Shown in pieces: positions 24,408-33,741 of a stretch of 64,000 bases of DNA. Location of the stretch: positions 558,001 to 622,000 of the forward strand of contig NW_026516224.1 in assembly GCF_025602895.1 (NCBI RefSeq), read 5' to 3'. Each line of letters opens with the position of its first letter. Position 1 is the stretch's first letter. Source of the DNA: Polychytrium aggregatum. Lineage: Eukaryota > Chytridiomycota > Chytridiomycetes > Polychytriales. The notes under the pieces were generated by a model. It ran no database searches and was not told the DNA's origin. It worked only from the letters and a program-made list of their open reading frames with translations. A program made the position numbers and the translations under genes.

Positions 24408-25969
24408 ATGGATGATTTATTCGTAATCGATCGCTTGGGCGACCCCACTGTTGTGGCAGACCAGCTGCAGACCATCCCCGCAGGCCTGCCACAGCCGAAA
24501 CGGCACTCGAAAGCCAAGGGCGGCAAAGCAAACACCGTTGCAACCCCAGCTATCCAGCCGCCCTCGCAAGCTTCCTCCTCCAGAGCCAGTTCCAAAGGCA
24601 AAGCTAAGCCTCCCATCGGAGGCTCCAGCAGAGCCTCAAGCACAGTCGCCCTGCCGCAGAGGCAAGCATCCGCATCTGATGACTTTGTACCCCTCAATTC
24701 GAAGAGAGAGGGCGGCAAGTTTGACTCCCGAAATGTCCAAGCCGACGCTGGCCGATCCAGTTCCGGCTTGAGCAGCAGGCCCAAACCCCAAGCACGTCCC
24801 ATCGGCTCCAGCATCGACCGGGTCCGACACCAGCAGCCGGACCGTTCGCTCGGGTATAGCGACGAAGCGGGCAACCGAAGCGGCTCCGATCCAGTCCGTG
24901 GCAAGCCGCCCAGCCCACAGACCTCTGGTCGCACTCAGAACAATCCCAGACACAAACCCCGCAACAACCAAAAGCGGAATCAAAAGTTGCGAGATCGCCA
25001 ACGGAACACTGGCTTTGCCCCCGGTGACGGCCCCGGCTTTGTCTTCATCGACGACGACGATGACAACCATATCGGTCATATCGGCCATGGCGGTCGATAC
25101 GAAGTTGTTGATCTGCAAGGCCGCACTCTGTCTCGCAACGCCTTTGCCGGTCTCGAGCACGATGCAGATAGCGCACCAGGAGAAGGCCATGGCCGGAAGC
25201 AAAAGGCTGCGGCTCTTTCCGACCAGCAGCCCGTCGCATCCCACGCCCAGCAATCGGGGTCTCCGCACGAAGCGGGTCGCCATTCTCAGACAGCCAAGGG
25301 CCACAAACAGCAGCCTGCCGACTGGAAGCAACAAAAACAGCAGAAGCTAAAGCAGCAAAAGCAGAAAGCCAAATCCAAGTGGAAGAAGCACCCCAGCTAT
25401 CGCGCCGAATCCGACGTGGACTCGGACGAAATGGCAGTCATGCTGGATTACATGGCGAACATATCAGATGACAACGACTTTACGCTATCTCACAACGCTG
25501 CACTCGCGTCATTGTCGATGCCCCAGGGCGACGGAGAAGGCTCCGGCAAGGAAGAGTCAGGCACGTTTGAACAATATTACCAAATCAACAATTTGCTGCT
25601 GGACGACCTGGACATGGAGCTGGACGACCAGGGCGTGTTCCAATACCGGGACACGGACGAGGAGCTCGAAGATGCTACTAGTGGCCAGGACGAAATAGAA
25701 GCCTCGGGCGATGTGCTGGCCCTGGGTAGCGCGTCGGTCATTGATGGCGCTGATGTTGATAACGAAGCCGACGAAGACGTTGGCACCGACCTCGAGGATA
25801 ATCAAGGCATTAAACCCAGTGGTGAAGTCACTGACGAAGACGATGGCGACCTCGAGTCGGTAGACGCCAGCGACATACCCACGGAAATGAACAGCGGCGC
25901 TCATGCTTTCGAAACTGAAGATGGGGATAGCGACGGCAGCGACGACAAGGTCACCAATGATGACATTGA

Positions 25970-26041
<72 letters not shown>

Positions 26042-27038
26042 CGATGACGGCGATGTTGACGATGACTCGGTCTACAACCAGCGGCTCATGGCATCGCTCT
26101 CATACGATGCTGCAGGCTTTGATCGTGACAACGAAGAGACCTTCATTGCGCAGGATCGATTCTTTGCAGGTGGCCCCTCGAAGTGGACTCGCGCAAGTGA
26201 CGACGATGACCTGGATGCCTATGAGCTCGAGAAAAAGTTCCGCGAGGTGTTGCGCGGCAAGTTCCCAAGACATGGTGACCCTCGTCTGCCGTCTCCCGAC
26301 CAACCCAGCAAGAGCAAGAGCAAGCGCCGAAAGGCTCTCAAACAAGAGCGCAAGGACAAGCGTGCGCTGAAGGCGGAGCGGCGGCTGGAGATGCAGCAAC
26401 AGGTCGAAGCCATGATGCGGGCCCTCAAGGGCAAGAAAGGCAGCCAACACGCCATCGACCTCAAGGCTGCAAACATGCTCCGGCGCTGCAACCAGCAAAT
26501 TCACGACTTTGTCGTCGATCCCGATGGGTTCCTCAGCATTCCATTGGCACCCATGCCGGCCGCCATGCGCACCCTCGTCGCTCGGATGGCCAAGCACTAC
26601 GGTATCGGGGTCAAGGCGCGAGGCAGCGGCCAACGCAAGCTCACAATCCTGTGCCGCAACCGAAGCAGTCGTGTGCCCGAAAACTGGAAAACGATTGCCG
26701 ACCGCGTAATCGAGCAGTCTGGCGGCATCATGACTGGCAATGTCCAGACTTTTGGCGGCAAAGGCGGCAAGGGCAAGGGAGTCCGCTCCAAGAAGGACTC
26801 TGTCCACACCAAAGCTGCCCAGAGACGAAGCGGCGGTGGCGGGGGTGCTGATGACTCCACCAAGCCGGCTGCTGGAACTGTTGTCGGTCAGGATGCTGCT
26901 CCCGTCGGAGGAATCGGCGAAAAGATGCTGCTGGCGATGGGCTGGCGACATGGCCAGTCGCTGGGCACAACGGGCGAAGGCATCACACAGCCGGTGCAGG
27001 CGGTCGTGCGAGCCAAGTTTGCGGGCCTGGGAACGTGA
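24408..27038 (+). CDS. SQS1: R3H and G-patch protein, SQS1-like spliceosome/ribosome factor
   Basis: A single 876-aa ORF. The N-terminal half is low complexity and basic; an acidic middle (~residues 345-550) ends in a run of about 27 Asp with one Gly interruption. An R3H-like domain follows near residues 690-760 (INxFV-like NQQIHDFVVDPDGFLSIPLA; MAKHYGIGVKARGSGQRKL). A C-terminal G-patch closes the protein: GIGEKMLLAMGWRHGQSLG through VRAKFAGLGT. This order matches Sqs1/Pfa1, which activates the DEAH helicase Prp43 in pre-mRNA splicing and ribosome maturation. The G-patch lies at the extreme C-terminus as in yeast. No intron is needed. The orthology is by domain order, not search. Confidence 0.85.
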
Positions 27039-27691
27039 AACTGCTGCCAAGGCCGGCCGGATGCATCCGAGGACGTCCCATCGGGTTTGGAGAGGTGCGA
27101 CCGTACTTTCATCGAGGATATCCCTCGGGGCACTCGAGCTATGGATCGCTCGCACTCGACAGACCCGGCGGCGGCAGTGTCTATTGCTCTCCAGGGCTTT
27201 TGACGGTGCGTGCTGTCTGATGGCTCTGACATTGCTGTCGCTCCACGACGACTTTCTCCCACCGACCCAAGAGCCGGCCTGCGCTCTCGCACCGGACACT
27301 GGGTTGGGTGAGCCCGCACAGGGCGCAGTACATCAGAGACAAATGCTCGCGATGCAGCTTTCCCGTATCGCAATACAGCTTTGCCCATTCGTATCAGCAG
27401 TTATGCAGCGCTGGTCCGTAGATCACTAGCAAGAGTGCAGGGATAGCAATGATCCCACTGCTTGCCTCGCCATAACCCGATGCGATCACGCCGGGAAAAC
27501 CGCAGGATGCAGCAGCTCGCCGACTCACCGCCATCAGAACCAGTCAGTGGAAGCGCGATGGTCATGGCCATCCACCGCACTCTGCTCATAGTCTCGCTGT
27601 TAGTGCCAGGTACAATGGAACTGAAAGTGCACTCCGAAGCTGTAGCACAGGGGTCAAGCGAGGGAACAAAACCGTGCTATTACACTTTATT
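27039..27691. other. Intergenic left of the Fanzor element
   Basis: 3' flank of SQS1 and the sequence just outside the element's left inverted repeat. No gene is recognised. The segment immediately adjoining 27692 would be the native target flank of the element. Confidence 0.5.
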
Positions 27692-27708
27692 CAGAAAAAA
27701 ACGGGACA
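27692..27708. repeat. Left terminal inverted repeat
   Basis: CAG followed by A7 and CGGGACA. The last 13 bases are perfectly complementary to 31291-31303. A diverged version (15 of 17 matches) occurs at 53622-53638 beside the Fanzor relic. It lies 74 bp beyond the Fanzor stop codon. Confidence 0.7.
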
Positions 27709-27850
27709 ATATAGCCGTTTCCATGAACATGTAGTATGTGCTGTGCTTGCGTCTAGCAAAGCCACAAGAAATAAAAACAGATCACTTTGGCAGCCTCCGA
27801 GTGAAGACCACCGGTCGCTCTCCGATCTCCACAATCGACCTGCATACTGT
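27692..27850 (-). ncRNA. Predicted Fanzor omega-RNA region (3' end of ORF to terminal repeat)
   Basis: In TnpB/Fanzor loci the guide RNA overlaps the 3' end of the nuclease gene and runs to the element end, with the guide taken from the adjoining flank. By position the equivalent here is the last Fanzor codons, the 74-bp tail and the left repeat, read on the minus strand, with a guide starting at 27691. I did not fold it; this is purely positional inference. Confidence 0.25.
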
Positions 27851-29992
27851 GATCATGTTGCGCGCCGCATTGACGTCGCGATTCCACACTGTCCGGCAGC
27901 TGGGATTCTTGCAGCTCCTGACAAAGTGGGAATTCGCAACACTGGGCGCATCGAGTCCTTCCAACCGAACTGGCTCCAGGCACTTGGAGCACACTTGCGA
28001 GGTGTTGAACTCGTTCGTCGAGGCCACCTTGGCGCTTCCATGATGGTGATTGGGACGGCGTCGGTGGTGCTCGAATTGCTCAAAGTACCGAGCAAACCGC
28101 TGCCTCCGAGGGCTGGATGCATAGCCCTTGCCCTGCCGCCATGATGCATTGCCAAAGGCGATGACCACATCGGTCCGTATCGGGGCGTGCCTCAGGACGG
28201 CCTTGCACATCTTGTCGACGGCCACTTGGCGCCTCTTGTGGCCCGTGAAGCGATGGTGACGGGCCTTCTTGCCAAGGTGGAAGTCGAGCTGCACCCGAAG
28301 CTCCGGTCGCAGGACATGGGTGAGATGGACCTTGAAAGCCTCCGAGGACGACACCTTGGGCGAGGGAGTGGTCGACATCCAGGTCTCGATGCTGAGTCGA
28401 TACTTCATGGTGTTGTGCCACTTGGTGTTGGACGTATGGCCACACATTTGCTGGTAGTGGCCATTGGAGAACGAGACCACCTCGTCTTGGTGGCCCGGTG
28501 CTTGGATGACCGCCGTGAAGATGGAGCCGACTCCAGGATCGATGCCAATCCAAGTGGTCCTGTTGGGGTCTGGGTCACCGATGTGGGCCTGGATGCGCTG
28601 CTCGGCAGTCGGAGGAGGCTCGATGGTCTCGGTGCGATCGGTTCGACGCACAAACTTGACGAGACCGATGGTGCATCCAATGCCATCGGTGCTGATCTCG
28701 TAGTTGAACAGCTTCTTGTTCACGTCCCGCTCTTGGAAGAGGGAACTACGCAACTTGAAGCAACTGCGCCAGAGACGATCCTGGTTGTTGATGCCGTCAT
28801 CACCTTCTTCCTTGAGCATGTCCCTGGTGAGTCCAAGGTGCTGTTCGGTGTCAAGGAGCTCCCAGAGAGTGACGGTGTCAATCTTGACATACTTGGCCCT
28901 TGCAGTGCATAGAGGAACTATCGTGCACACGGCCGGAGGAGTGTCGACGGCGAGCTGCTTGAGTGCCCAGTTGAGTCTGGATGCCAGCTTGTTGATCTTG
29001 GACTTGGTGGTGCCGAGCTCAGACTTGGCCGTGGTGAACCTCTTGTCGTCGGAGGGAATGCCTCTGGCAGTGAGCTTGTCCAGCTTGGCCTGGCGCTGCA
29101 GCTCGGTGATTCGGAGGGCGGGCATGTCACAGTCGATCCACTTGTGGACATTGTCGACCATCTTGTCTCGGGCGAGGATTCTCACATGGTATGAGAGGCG
29201 GTGGAGGGCCCGGAAGCGGTCCTGGTCGTTGCTGTACCGAAACTCGTCCAGGATGTGGCCAAACTCGGGATAGAGGAACTCGAGATCGGCCTTGGGTGGA
29301 GTCTGCCCTGGTTTCTCGAAGAGCTCGAGACAGGCCTCGATGGCTTCGTGCTTGTGCTTGTTGGCTGGGAAGACGGCAGCGCAGAAGCGGCGAAGGAGTC
29401 GCCAGTAGGCCAGGTCGAGGTGGGTGGTGCAGTTGGTGGCATAGGCATTGACAGCCAGTGTGAGAAGCTGACTGTGAGCACCATCAGGCAGACGAGGGGC
29501 CGGAGGCAGGTCTGCGTGCCGAGTGGTCTGGTAGTCGCGAAAGGAAGCGACCAGATGCTCGTTGTATTTCTCATTGTCCCCGGTCGGGGAGAGGGCACCG
29601 GCCTGGACGATCTTGAAGCATTGACGGATGAAAGCAGGGGTGGTCTTGGAGATGACGGGGACGGGAAGATCCTGCTCGATGCACCGGAGGATGTGCAGGT
29701 TGAGCAGCCTGGATGCCTCGAACTGAATCTGGGTCATGGCTGCGACGGTGGCCTGGATCTTGTCGCGGAGAGCGGGATTGAGACAACAGCCATCCATCGT
29801 CTGCTTGAAGCAGCTGAACTGAGGGGCGGATGACCTTCCATCCACGAGTGGGACGACAGAACTCTTGAGGGGGTGATATTTTGGACACTTGTTGGTGTTG
29901 CAACGTTCGTGATCGGTGCCATCGCACTGGCGACATCGCTTGCCGGTACTCGAGGAAGTAGATGGACCAGGCTCGGTGGGATCGACATCCAT
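27782..29992 (-). CDS. Fanzor (eukaryotic TnpB-like RNA-guided nuclease), 736 aa
   Basis: One uninterrupted minus-strand ORF. The C-terminal half carries a RuvC-like nuclease: IGIDPGVGS with Asp485, VVIAFGNASW near 610-618, then NEFNTSQVC with Glu661, a C4 zinc ribbon (Cys668, 671, 694, 699) and NRDVNAARN with Asp706. This fits the published Fanzor signature D-x(125-275)-[TS][TS]xx-C4 finger-x(5-50)-RD: Asp485 to Thr664 is about 180 residues and RD begins six after the last Cys. The RuvC-II site lacks the usual Glu, so Glu661 is the candidate relocated catalytic acid (inference). The N-terminus has an extra zinc-knuckle-like CxxC-x4-H-x2-C-x4-C (residues 20-36). The middle is helical and unassigned, presumably RNA/DNA binding. 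The ORF is intact and its neighbours are intron-rich, consistent with transfer within a transposon. Confidence 0.88.
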   Translation of the reverse strand: MDVDPTEPGPSTSSSTGKRCRQCDGTDHERCNTNKCPKYHPLKSSVVPLVDGRSSAPQFSCFKQTMDGCCLNPALRDKIQATVAAMTQIQFEASRLLNLHILRCIEQDLPVPVISKTTPAFIRQCFKIVQAGALSPTGDNEKYNEHLVASFRDYQTTRHADLPPAPRLPDGAHSQLLTLAVNAYATNCTTHLDLAYWRLLRRFCAAVFPANKHKHEAIEACLELFEKPGQTPPKADLEFLYPEFGHILDEFRYSNDQDRFRALHRLSYHVRILARDKMVDNVHKWIDCDMPALRITELQRQAKLDKLTARGIPSDDKRFTTAKSELGTTKSKINKLASRLNWALKQLAVDTPPAVCTIVPLCTARAKYVKIDTVTLWELLDTEQHLGLTRDMLKEEGDDGINNQDRLWRSCFKLRSSLFQERDVNKKLFNYEISTDGIGCTIGLVKFVRRTDRTETIEPPPTAEQRIQAHIGDPDPNRTTWIGIDPGVGSIFTAVIQAPGHQDEVVSFSNGHYQQMCGHTSNTKWHNTMKYRLSIETWMSTTPSPKVSSSEAFKVHLTHVLRPELRVQLDFHLGKKARHHRFTGHKRRQVAVDKMCKAVLRHAPIRTDVVIAFGNASWRQGKGYASSPRRQRFARYFEQFEHHRRRPNHHHGSAKVASTNEFNTSQVCSKCLEPVRLEGLDAPSVANSHFVRSCKNPSCRTVWNRDVNAARNMITVCRSIVEIGERPVVFTRRLPK

Positions 29993-30403
29993 TGGATCTG
30001 CAGAAGCAGTGGTGGTGAGCGACGGAGCAACAGATGAACAAGCATGCGTGAGATCAGAATACGAACCAGAGACAGGCTCCGACTGTGACTTGGCTTTCTT
30101 GGGCCTGGGTGGCCGAGGCTGGCCATCACCGGCACCCTTACGCTTCGGAGGTATGGGGGCAGAGGATGCTGGATGCCTGCCAGTGGTACTGGTCAGAGCA
30201 GAGACTTCTCTTTATCGTACAATGGCGCGATGATCAGATCAAGGCGAGATGAGGGAAGAAAGCAGCAGGACGAAGGTGTGGCATTTATACCCGAGAGCAG
30301 GAGCCCGTCGTTGCGGGCTGGTTGGGGAAGTGACCCTGTTCAAAAATCGCCGAGAGGTTCAAGCCAGGGATTTGAGCGTGAAAATGGCGGCTTGATTGGG
30401 GGA

Positions 30404-30458
30404 CTAAACCCCAAATTGGAGGAACTCAACCCCAAATCGGTGGGGACTCAACCCCAAA
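30404..30458. repeat. Three copies of ACTNAACCCCAAA at the transposase/Fanzor junction
   Basis: Copies at 30404-30416, 30424-30436 and 30446-30458, spaced 20-22 bp. The third overlaps the point where transposase similarity stops (after the ENFF motif), and the second contains the premature stop. Confidence 0.8.
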
Positions 30459-31232
30459 GAAGTTTTCGATGGGATTGAAGTCGGGTGAAGCAGGTGGGGT
30501 GAAGATCACTGACCATCCTCGGCGCTCGATGCAGTCCAGGACAGCCATTGTCTTGTGCATGCTGACATTGTCCATCACAATCACAGAGTCGTCTGGGAAG
30601 CTCGCTCGCTCAAAGAACTCGACCATCGAGTGTGTCTTGAATGATGTGGGGATGTACATGCGATGCAGCACACCAGAGTGGTTGATGGCAAATGCAGCCG
30701 AGACAGACTTGTGTTTCATGTGATTGCGCTGGCGAAGCGGAGCACCCTTCGGTGAGTATCCGTAAAGAGGGAAAATGGATCTCCTGATCCCCGTCTCATC
30801 GACAAAAACGAATCGCCGCGGGTCGATGGAGCGGACCTGGTCCCTGAACTGTGCCACTCGCTCATCCAGTCGCTTGGACTTGTAGAGGTGTGTTGCCCTC
30901 TTGTGTGAGAGACCTGCTCGGTGGATGGCAGTGTGGCAGAGTGAGAGTGATACTTTCCTCTGGAGGATGGACTCGAGCTTGCATCGCAACACAGGACCAG
31001 TCTGGAACGGGTCCTGTTCAATCAGGGTGCGAATGACTGGACATGCCTGCTCGAAGAAAGTGGATCTGCGAGCTGGGACCCGGGATGGGTCATCCAGCTT
31101 GCATCCTCGGTGCCATCGATGGATGGTGCTCTTGGATACACTGAATATGGAGGCGACCTTGCGCAGGCTATGGATGAGGGCGTAGCATCGCAATGCGGCG
31201 GTGCGAAAGTTGGATGTGTGGCGAATGGTCAT
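30426..31232 (-). CDS. DD34E Tc1/mariner-IS630 transposase, C-terminally truncated
   Basis: A 268-aa intronless ORF. An N-terminal helix-turn-helix (SLRKVASIFSVSKSTIHRWH) binds ends in this family. The DDE catalytic triad is complete: Asp145 in FVFVDETGIR, Asp221 in VIVMDNVSMH, and Glu256 in SPDFNPIENFF, with 34 residues between the last two. Family members normally continue for some 20-50 residues after ENFF; here the frame runs into a short repeat and stops 12 residues later, so the tail is missing. It belongs to the same element as the downstream Fanzor gene, on the same strand, with 433 bp between. Activity is doubtful. Confidence 0.87.
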   Translation of the reverse strand: MTIRHTSNFRTAALRCYALIHSLRKVASIFSVSKSTIHRWHRGCKLDDPSRVPARRSTFFEQACPVIRTLIEQDPFQTGPVLRCKLESILQRKVSLSLCHTAIHRAGLSHKRATHLYKSKRLDERVAQFRDQVRSIDPRRFVFVDETGIRRSIFPLYGYSPKGAPLRQRNHMKHKSVSAAFAINHSGVLHRMYIPTSFKTHSMVEFFERASFPDDSVIVMDNVSMHKTMAVLDCIERRGWSVIFTPPASPDFNPIENFFGVESPPIWG

Positions 31233-31290
31233 GGCCAGCGCGCGATAACATTGGGTAACAAAATATTCGATGAATGGTCAAAAACCCGGG

Positions 31291-31303
31291 TGTCCCGTTT
31301 TTT
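31291..31303. repeat. Right terminal inverted repeat
   Basis: TGTCCCGTTTTTT, the exact complement of 27696-27708, located 58 bp upstream of the transposase start. The bases ATTGG follow it. Confidence 0.7.
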
Positions 31304-31354
31304 ATTGGATCGCCCGTAAGCTGCAACGCACACAGGAAAGGTCTCTCTGGGGTT

Positions 31355-33741
31355 CTACAGACTCATGTCGTTTGGGCTGTGCTTCCTGGCATGCGCCTTG
31401 CAGAACTGATCCATGAACTCGTCCTTGGATTTTGGGCTCAAGATGCCGTTGGCGGTCTCCGCCTCGATGGTCGTGAACGATCCTCCGTACGAGTGCCCCG
31501 GCCACACCACTGTCGACGGCGGGAGCTTCGTGAGCTTATTGAACAGCGAGTCGTACATCTTCTCGACCGAGCTGTCGCTAAAGTCCACCCGACCGCACGT
31601 GCCGATGAAGAGGGTATCGCCGCTCAACAGGCGGGTCTGGTTCAACAAGACGCACTGCGAGCCCATGGTATGGCCCGGGGTGTGGATGAACTTGATGGAG
31701 ATGTACTCTGGGTGGGGTTCCGATGTCGCTGTTGAGCCCGTGTCGGCTGCAGCCAACTGGAGCCGGCCACTTTTGCTGTTGCTGTTGCTGTCGCTGCTGC
31801 TCTCGTTTTTCGACATCGGGAGGAACAGTATGGCGTCATCAGAGGTCTCGATGAGCCGCTCGGCCTTGAGCTCTGGGTTGGCCTGGGTGACTTGCGGAAT
31901 GTCGCTGGGGTTGACGTAGGCTTTGATTGTGGGGAGCTTTCGAAGCAACTTGGCAAGTCCATCAACTCGGATGCGGTACTGATCGTAAGGCGGAGGGGGT
32001 ATCCCGCCGACTGAGGGATTGCAGCATCGTCGTAGTAGATGCAGGGAATTGTTTGCGTCCAGAGGAAAGAACTGCGTCAGCATGATGCCAGCGCCAGGGA
32101 GCGAAGAGTATCTAGGAAGATTCGATTCGATTCATATAGCCTTTTCCGAAGCATTAGGCAGAGATATAGTGAAGGAAAGCGCCGACGATGGATGCTGGGT
32201 TCGCAGCCCTCCATACCATGATCGATGTGGTGGTGCGTGACGATGGCTCCGACGATCTTGAGGCCGAAGCGATCCGTATACTTGATGATGCCATCGATAT
32301 CCCAGCACTGGTCAAAGGCAGGTTCTGTCGTCAGAGAGAGTCCAACGATCCACCGTCGTCTGATCTCGATCACAGGTGCGCTCCAGTGCCGGCAGTGCGA
32401 TAGGATCACCCACAGCGTCGACAACGAGGCACTCCTTGCTGGCCTTGTGCTCAATGATGTAGATGTAGTTTTTCATCTGCAGGGCATAGTCCCAGATCAA
32501 GTTCTGGATGGGGGCAAAGAACGCCCGCTTTTCGCATATGTGCCTGCCCACGGAGAGCTGATGCAGGCGGAATCCTGATGCACCACGACGGAGGTCAGTC
32601 GAATGGCGATGCCGTTAAGCAGAATGTGGCCTGGCCCAACAGGCCAGCAGGTCCAACATGGCAGCTGGCCCGGATCGACTCACCCATTCGATCATCCTCC
32701 TCGAAGATGTCCACAAGCTGTATCCGCTCCTTGATGTGCTCGTCGTCTTGCAGCTGGAGTCGGTGCGATCGGATCAGGACATTCCAGATTCATCCAGGCC
32801 GGATTCCAGGAGCATGTGGATGGCATTGTGGCATCAAACCAGACAGCGGATACGAGTCCTGTCAGCGACGACAGCATCGTCCAGAGAACCAACACCATGC
32901 CCAGAGCCCAGGAGCACTAGTCTCATCGGGGAATTGAGCGGCTGGGACTGCCCTCGGTCCCAAAGACAGTAGCGTCGCTCGGTGGATGGCCTCCTCGCAC
33001 CAGGCTTACCAGACTCAGAGCCCGCTGGAAGTTCTTTTTTGCATTTCGATGGTCCTGCATGCCCATCAGCGCTTCGCCGCGACGCAAGTATCCCTGTGAG
33101 TTCCGTGAGAGGCGTTCGGGTGGGGATGGGGTGGAGAACAGAGAAGCAAAACGGCATCGGGTATAATGTGAATGTGCGATTGCGCCGTCGCTGATCCAGG
33201 ATGATGGCTTCCGTCCGTCCGTCTCTCGCTGCCCAACACGATGATGATGGCGTCCAGGACTCACCTTCCCCCACAGCGGCGTCAGCCTGATGACCAGCTC
33301 GGCATCCTCCAGCGCCTCATGGTACAGGCCCAGCTGGCACCGAGTCGCTGCCCGGTTGCTGAACAGGGTCGAGACGACGATGCGAGGATCGAGCGGCTCG
33401 TCCGACTTGGCGACCACAAACGAAAGCTCTCGATAGTCGTCCTCCATCATGGCATCGACAAACACCTGTGACAGGGAGACGGCTTGGCTGTATTCGGTGA
33501 GGGCCTGGGAGTAGCTTCCCTTGGCAAAGTAGCCGTTGCCCCGGACCTTGGTTTTTTCGATTGTGGCCAGCAGCTGCGGCTTGAGCTTCCGCCGCTTTTG
33601 CGGGGTGTCGGGGGTGCTCGTTGCGGGGCTCTCGGCCAGCTTCCAGCCTCGACTCGAGCTGACCGATGCACTTGCCGACCGGGAGCGAGGGCGCCCAGTC
33701 GACGACTGCCGCGAGGTGCTCTGTATGTTATCGCTGGACAT
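31355..33741 (-). CDS. TPR - metallo-beta-lactamase fold hydrolase fusion (glyoxalase II-like)
   Basis: Six exons (33741-33265, 33093-33010, 32753-32684, 32574-32414, 32307-32217, 32010-31355) join in phase throughout to 512 aa. Residues ~60-210 form a TPR domain (GNGYFAKGSYSQALTEYSQA, SNRAATRCQLGLYHEALEDA, GYLRRGEALMGMQDHRNAKK). Exon 3 (FEEDDRMG) bridges into an MBL hydrolase: THHHIDHVGG (HxHxDH), FIHTPGHTMGSQ, LLSGDTLFIGTCGRVDF and WPGHSYGG give the full two-zinc ligand set. The insert PPPPYDQYRIRVDGLAKLL is seen in hydroxyacylglutathione hydrolase-like proteins. The likely reaction is thioester hydrolysis (glyoxalase II type), with the TPRs recruiting a partner; the substrate is unproven. 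Two separate genes are possible, but I found no start codon for an MBL-only gene that includes its first strand. Confidence 0.75.

Follow-up and report, generated by a model that had tools for sequence, protein, structure and literature searches.

A 64,000-nucleotide stretch of the Polychytrium aggregatum genome (contig NW_026516224.1, positions 558,001 to 622,000; the window) contains a Tc1/mariner element at 27683-31316, on the minus strand, that encodes a transposase and a Fanzor1 protein. In this report we compare this element with its relatives elsewhere in the genome. Among the sequences compared, the flank footprint of the insertions changes with the type of Fanzor cassette that is carried, while the transposase stays nearly constant. 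It is possible, although we hold the proposal only tentatively, that two interchangeable cassettes, each made of a Fanzor gene and a 3' end, are carried on one transposase and that the flanks of the surviving insertions follow the cassette (T before the TA for type A, C or T after the TA for type B2, and A after the TA for type B1). If true, this would be a natural experiment in which Fanzor, through RNA-guided cutting, selects the mariner insertions that persist, that is, a eukaryotic retention or homing drive. The best explanation overall, and one that we consider reasonably probable, is that a DD34E mariner inserts at TA by cut-and-paste and that Fanzor re-cuts the vacated sites, thereby retaining the element.

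Flanking Sequences and Fanzor Cassettes

The window copy belongs to type A, for which the bases next to the TA at the 5' (transposase) end are markedly one-sided. Among the exact 5' ends of the class CRGGCRATCC, T was found before the TA in 204 of 214 and another base in 10, against a background in the window of 179 of 1291 TA sites. At the exact type-A 3' ends, the TA is followed by A in 40 of 210 and by other bases in 170. These flank counts include places on duplicated contigs. The one-sided T before the 5' TA predicts a target-adjacent motif of TTA, which for the window copy would be located as follows:

31317..31319, minus strand, predicted target-adjacent motif TTA (the TA and the preceding T, in the coding orientation; T in 204 of 214 exact 5' ends)

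Places were available for 110 of the 5' ends (100 of the 204 T ends listed), and 72 of these could be matched to type-A 3' ends (100 of the 170 non-A ends listed), leaving 38 unassigned. Within this paired set of listed type-A elements, T precedes the 5' TA in 67 of 72.

A second type of element was identified at L070 (G000:C63:30740-34640), which is complete. Its first 1012 bp, consisting of the 5' repeat and the transposase, are 95.9% identical to type A, which is approximately the identity between two type-A copies. Past the transposase, L070 has a different Fanzor (type B2, 855 amino acids, 43% identical to type A) and a different 3' end. L070 is the only B2 element that was read whole. 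Long open Fanzor frames with the catalytic and zinc residues were found in both L070 and the type-A element L020.

The 5' ends of the class CAGCC, collected with a pattern that omits ends with G two bases before the TA, numbered 10, and T precedes the TA in 5. Seven of the 10 were paired by eye with a B2 3' end; T precedes the TA in 4 of these 7, and in 5 of them (C24, C58, C63 twice, and C157) a transposase match that is 97-98% identical to the window protein lies between the ends. The frequencies of T before the TA in the B2 pairs and in the type-A pairs listed (4/7 vs 67/72) differ with p = 0.02, and those of TTA on either side (4/7 vs 71/72) with p = 0.002. The base after the TA follows a different rule as well. 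Of 28 3' ends found with a B2 pattern, which omits ends with G as the second base after the TA, 20 have the L070-type repeat, and in these the TA is followed by C in 11, T in 8, and A in 1, or C or T in 19 of 20; the corresponding number for type A is estimated to be about 110 of 210. The other 8 ends have different repeats (G 4, A 2, and T 2 after the TA) and were excluded from the test.

Type B1 is known from 3' halves (L069 and L071, and also L040:1-1133), with a 23-residue transposase remnant upstream in L069 and L071. The TA at B1 3' ends is followed by A in 80 of 97, and a 5' end for this type was not found. The ends with CAGTCTATCC were considered as a Fanzor-free mariner control and rejected, because those that were read are the 3' ends of the second Fanzor type; consequently, no Fanzor-free control was found.

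Boundaries, Ends, and Copy Number

The bounds of the window element were determined from the alignment of its copies:

27683..31316, minus strand, whole Tc1/mariner-Fanzor element (type A), 3634 bp, with its edges placed where the similarity between copies stops at TA
27681..27682, strand not applicable, TA target-site duplication on the 3' (Fanzor) side; TA in 43 of 45 pattern-matched 3' ends and in the empty site of a related copy
31317..31318, strand not applicable, TA target-site duplication on the 5' (transposase) side; TA in 50 of 52 pattern-matched 5' ends and in the same empty site
31291..31316, minus strand, 5' terminal inverted repeat, 26 bp, imperfect, containing one of the two AAAAAACGGGACA 13-mers
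27683..27708, minus strand, 3' terminal inverted repeat, 26 bp; 2 of 26 sites variable, vs 11 of 26 in the 5' repeat

The TA counts apply to pattern-matched ends only, and the pattern did not pick up the 3' end of L057. The 13-mer AAAAAACGGGACA occurs in two perfect copies, at 27696-27708 (plus strand) and 31291-31303 (minus strand), which are the sole exact ones within the window. Across the genome (64.7 Mb) there are 376 forward and 367 reverse exact matches, compared with 2 and 0 for the reversed control, and among the 100 places listed there are many facing pairs separated by 3.4-3.7 kb. In the aligned copies that were fetched, conservation continues outward from the 13-mer for 13 more bases on each side to a TA, after which the DNA is unrelated. 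The element is larger than first supposed because the similarity between copies runs past the 13-mer on both sides. The original prediction, made from the window alone, had the element flanked by perfect 13-bp inverted repeats; both perfect copies are present and are not a matter of chance, but they are the inner halves of the 26-bp repeats, and the 13-mer was rejected as the element end, which lies 13 bp farther out on each side.

The genome search for further copies that had been suggested uncovered a large family with facing pairs of ends at TA, and the suggested search for empty sites yielded one for a related copy: bases 5-74 of L007 match the joined flanks of L059 at 66 of 70 positions, with a single TA. 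A search of viral contigs gave three pattern matches and no relatives of the element. The same flank was found on different contigs for the copies on C68/C363, C6/C334, and C124/C379, as duplicated segments or unmerged haplotypes. The sequence AATAAA is present at the element edge (27683-27695 in the window) in the type-A 3' ends compared, with the exception of L057, and is absent from eight type-B ends. A polyadenylation signal in the 3' repeat that sets the length of the guide was considered on this account and set aside, given this distribution.

On either side of the element there is a gene that points toward it. An open reading frame (ORF) with a metallo-beta-lactamase fold (31355-32083) ends 36 bp from the TA, and a G-patch/R3H ORF (24408-27038) lies on the other side. 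The region had originally been described as otherwise intron-rich; the closest gene to the left is itself an uninterrupted ORF of 876 amino acids.

Fanzor and Transposase Proteins

The coding features of the element are as follows:

27782..29992, minus strand, Fanzor1 ORF from an internal ATG, 736 amino acids, stop included; PF07282 at 1e-8, with DPG, alternative E, TDG, zinc ribbon, and RD
29993..30154, minus strand, upstream extension of 54 open codons with homology to the basic N-terminal part of the 790-residue Fanzor and with ATA rather than ATG as the first codon
30426..31232, minus strand, DD34E (IS630/Tc1-type) transposase, 268 amino acids, C-terminally truncated relative to 310; PF13358 at 2.5e-21 and NF033545 at 4.4e-34

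Sequence motifs and profile matches, together with the TA duplications and the many copies, support the identification of the window protein as a Fanzor that is carried by a DD34E Tc1/mariner element, in agreement with what had been proposed from the window alone. The two ORFs are uninterrupted and co-oriented, as described originally. The profile search that had been recommended gave a match to PF07282 (Cas12f1-like TNB domain) at 1e-8. The catalytic residues Asp485, Glu661, and Asp706 and the four zinc-ribbon cysteines that had been named were confirmed to be present. In an alignment of seven proteins (types A and B), the RuvC1 motif DPG (IGIDPGVGS, D485), the TDG motif of the WED region (T435-D436-G437), and the zinc-ribbon residues C668, C671, C694, and C699 are invariant. 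The alternative glutamate, six residues ahead of the zinc ribbon (NEFNTSQVC, E661, C668), is found in six of the seven and is replaced by K in L019. DPG, the alternative E, and TDG are marks of Fanzor and Fanzor1 (PMC10711439). The motif of Bao and Jurka, D-X(125,275)-[TS][TS]XX-C4-X(5,50)-RD, is matched by D485, T664-S665, the same four cysteines, and R705-D706. The partner is a DDE transposase and not the IS607-type transposase that accompanies Fanzor2.

A search of the PDB with the window Fanzor alone returned only LaTranC (E values of 0.47 and 0.62) and neither SpuFz1 nor GtFz1. With a profile made of one type-A and one type-B protein, the only PDB matches at E ≤ 1 were SpuFz1 (8gkh, E = 0.0036) and GtFz1 (9cer, E = 0.14), mainly in the zinc-ribbon end. 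The N-termini of Fanzor A and B are basic and are followed by CxxC..H..C motifs that, by eye, resemble zinc knuckles. The most polymorphic stretch of Fanzor is at 2425-2619 of the L020 element (residues about 386-450; nucleotide diversity, pi, of 0.08-0.12), approximately 40 residues before TDG.

The DD34E spacing of the transposase triad was counted by eye, and the full form of 310 residues was seen in L020. The condition of the genes was determined in a comparison set of 36 full-size elements, of which 28 were picked by Fanzor score, a choice that favors Fanzor, and 8 by their ends or transposase. The window transposase lacks a 105-bp segment that is likewise missing in 19 of the 36, and an ORF of 268 residues is found in 4 of the 36, including the window copy. 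The earlier description of the transposase as truncated is correct, and the truncation comes from an allele of the family. The Fanzor ORF is at least 784 residues long in 27 of the 36, usually 790 residues starting with MPPKRK, whereas the 310-residue transposase ORF is retained in only 7. In the window, the codon at the position of the MPPKRK methionine is ATA; the Fanzor ORF is 736 residues long because the usual start is lost, leaving an internal ATG. Judged by its sequence, the window copy, which had been called intact and undamaged, is thus one that has lost the normal start and has the truncated transposase shared within the family, and it probably makes neither the normal 790-residue Fanzor nor the full transposase.

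Of the 61 Fanzor loci scored, which are the best-scoring copies only, 8 have a stop and one is split. The copies are approximately 96% identical and thus young. For substitutions shared between copies, a ratio analogous to that of nonsynonymous to synonymous changes (dN/dS-like, relative to the expected changes; 35 elements, with L056 omitted) was determined to be 0.31 in Fanzor and, over codons 1-258, 0.29 in the transposase, with 0.62 for the singletons in both; sampling by Fanzor score lowers the Fanzor value somewhat. Fanzor is under purifying selection in the copies compared. The original suggestion that the nuclease has been kept or mobilized in trans divides accordingly: mobilization in trans is plausible from the ORF counts given above, with their sampling in favor of Fanzor, while it is for the family as a whole that the shared changes show the nuclease to have been kept.

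The 3' Non-coding End and Deletion Derivatives

The features at the 3' end are as follows:

27683..27781, minus strand, 3' non-coding end, putative omega-RNA scaffold; less variable than the intergenic DNA and retained in ghost elements
27690..27727, minus strand, predicted terminal hairpin, with the terminal repeat as its 3' arm; for type A, the folding energy does not reach significance (z = -1.2)
27660..27680, minus strand, host flank, which would act as the guide should the RNA extend beyond the element end, as suggested by SpuFz1 (PMC10432273)

Conservation was measured in 28 distinct elements of L009-L038, for which both ends could be seen irrespective of sequence. Of the last 97 bp, 12 are variable (pi of 0.017), compared with 65 of 250 intergenic positions (pi of 0.052; p = 0.006). 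In both type A and type B, the 3' repeat can form one arm of a hairpin. In the type-A hairpin region, three of the five variable sites are in the loop. For three of eight type-B sequences, 0, 1, and 3 of 200 shuffles equaled the hairpin, and for the other five 12 to 69 did so. A search of Rfam gave no matches at E ≤ 0.1. By analogy with known Fanzor systems, the 3' end is likely to be the source of the guide RNA of the element.

The ghosts L049 and L050 (308 and 309 bp) are made up of the first 97 bp of the element plus its last 213 bp, with 97-99% identity, and elements of 278-380 bp make up 13 of the 72 paired elements listed. The pair L049/L050 and the pair L051/L052 (1110 bp) each keep both ends and have one junction in common, and each appears to have multiplied on its own.

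The sequence comparison suggests frequent gene conversion or recombination between copies. Among 217 shared variant sites, the four-gamete test is failed by 64-78% of the pairs. The value of r2 is 0.156 for sites within 50 bp of each other and about 0.04 at greater distances, the latter being the value expected for 28 independent sequences, and it drops from 0.20 to 0.04-0.05 when only transversions are used; linkage between copies is gone within about 200 bp (alignment L009-L038). For the alleles defined by large deletions or segments, all four combinations were found in five of six pairs. Assembly polishing errors could add to the single-nucleotide part of this signal but hardly to the deletions.

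Proposed Mechanism and Alternatives

In the mechanism that we favor, the transcript of the 3' end would read across the terminal repeat and the TA into the flank, and the RNA of each copy would carry its own insertion site as the guide. Once the element has excised, Fanzor would cut the site left behind, using TTA as the target-adjacent motif, and repair would draw on a copy in which the element is present, so that the element would be retained and could spread to empty alleles. Insertions without TTA on the 5' side would not benefit from Fanzor in this way and would become scarce. The window copy would rely on other copies but could still supply guide RNA. The guide-and-recut steps are drawn by analogy with SpuFz1 and TnpB (PMC10432273; PMC11870625). 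This mechanism agrees with the bias toward T on one side, with the conservation at the 3' end, and with Fanzor being retained more often than the transposase.

Several observations count against re-cutting by Fanzor or weaken its support. A follows the 3' TA somewhat more often than in the window background (40/210 vs 149/1291 on the plus strand, p = 0.003), and four of the five paired exceptions without T, among those listed, have A after the 3' TA, as if TTA were reversed, although two of them (C61 and C101) are alike and may be one event. These two findings indicate that the transposase may itself like TTA, and the one-sided T could thus be a preference of the transposase. L019 has an open Fanzor frame of 790 residues in which the catalytic E is replaced by K, so that an open frame is no proof of activity. 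L031 and L037 have TG instead of TA on the 3' side and also lack the T before the 5' TA, perhaps because their ends are rearranged. The type-A hairpin is no better than shuffles (z = -1.2); with the 34 bases upstream, from the stop codon, z is -1.7 and 9 of 200 shuffles are equal, and the hairpins of the window and four other copies have z of -0.2 to -1.3. Finally, the contrast between types A and B2 consists of seven paired elements, perhaps six of them independent, in which the 5' repeat also differs by one base and duplicated contigs are possible. The lost catalytic residue in L019 and the excess of A after the 3' TA slightly reduce our confidence in the best explanation.

The footprint could instead be made by a transposase that prefers TTA, with the orientation set by the 5' repeat and with Fanzor as a passenger that does not shape persistence. 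The two terminal repeats differ, so the orientation could be read, and the reversed exceptions described above speak for this reading. Ghosts without a Fanzor gene also mostly have the T (10/13 vs 53/55 full-size elements, among the pairs listed; p = 0.045), but they could be served in trans. This explanation seems unlikely to us, although it deserves to be taken seriously, as the elements in which another Fanzor accompanies a transposase of 96% identity and an almost unchanged 5' repeat are not restricted to T and have a different base rule after the TA. We consider it improbable that Fanzor is decaying as a hitch-hiker, serves no function here at present, and owes its open frames only to a recent burst. 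The copies are young, the full frame is lost in the window copy and in 8 others of the 36, and the open copy L019 lacks the catalytic E; however, the shared changes show purifying selection that is as strong in Fanzor as in the transposase, two Fanzor types that are only 43% identical both have long open frames and their catalytic and zinc residues (L020 and L070), and the transposase is broken more often than Fanzor, in a sample biased toward Fanzor. There is at most a slim chance that the element is mobilized in trans and that Fanzor has another role, such as an action on other transposons or a function as a host gene. Saito et al. regard what Fanzor does biologically as an open question and suggest an action in trans on other elements (PMC10432273), but the Fanzor copies that were read have mobile ends at TA on both sides and retain the 3' end; no search was made for a domesticated single-copy gene.

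Because this family has numerous young copies, a nearly constant transposase combined with two Fanzor types, and clear one-sided flank signatures, it allows the role of Fanzor to be tested directly. The predicted motifs are TTA, TAY, and TAA, and the family provides further Fanzor1 proteins for study.

Comparison with Known Systems

For the bacterial IS200/IS605 elements, a gene drive has been proposed in which TnpB retains the element by cutting the element-free site (PMC11870625). The retention proposed here is similar, but those elements have another transposase, and for the eukaryotic element we infer retention from the comparisons above. The closest parallels to the guide and flank features are found in SPu-1, the element of SpuFz1 from Spizellomyces punctatus, which has inverted repeats, a putative TA duplication, a conserved 3' non-coding end, a guide read from the flank, and ghosts (PMC10432273; PMC3627910), and L049 and L050 resemble these ghost loci (PMC10432273). 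The conserved bases before the 5' repeat of SPu-1 fit its measured CATA motif (PMC10432273), in parallel with the T before the TA reported here. The differences are that no transposase was found between the SPu-1 repeats, that the motif is CATA rather than the predicted TTA, and that the proteins are only remotely similar. The TTAA motif of GtFz1 from Guillardia theta resembles the TTA and TAA footprints (PMC10432273; PMC11423790), whereas the GtFz1 locus is reported as seeming to be without inverted repeats or a clear transposase (PMC10432273).

The kind of element described here is already known, because mariners with Fanzor1 and chimeric 3' halves were reported by Bao and Jurka in 2013 (PMC3627910). 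Their PGv-1, PUl-1, and PUl-4 likewise combine a Mariner-like transposase and Fanzor1 with inverted repeats and TA duplications, and some members of this group have a common transposase half (about 78% identical) with a different 3' half, as is the case here. We found no report of two Fanzors on one transposase with different flank footprints among the titles and abstract openings listed from an open-access library. The four chimeric examples of Bao and Jurka are single-copy (PMC3627910), whereas P. aggregatum has many copies, a transposase of 96% identity followed by either of two Fanzor types, and a footprint for each type. The new part is the comparison of paired cassettes.

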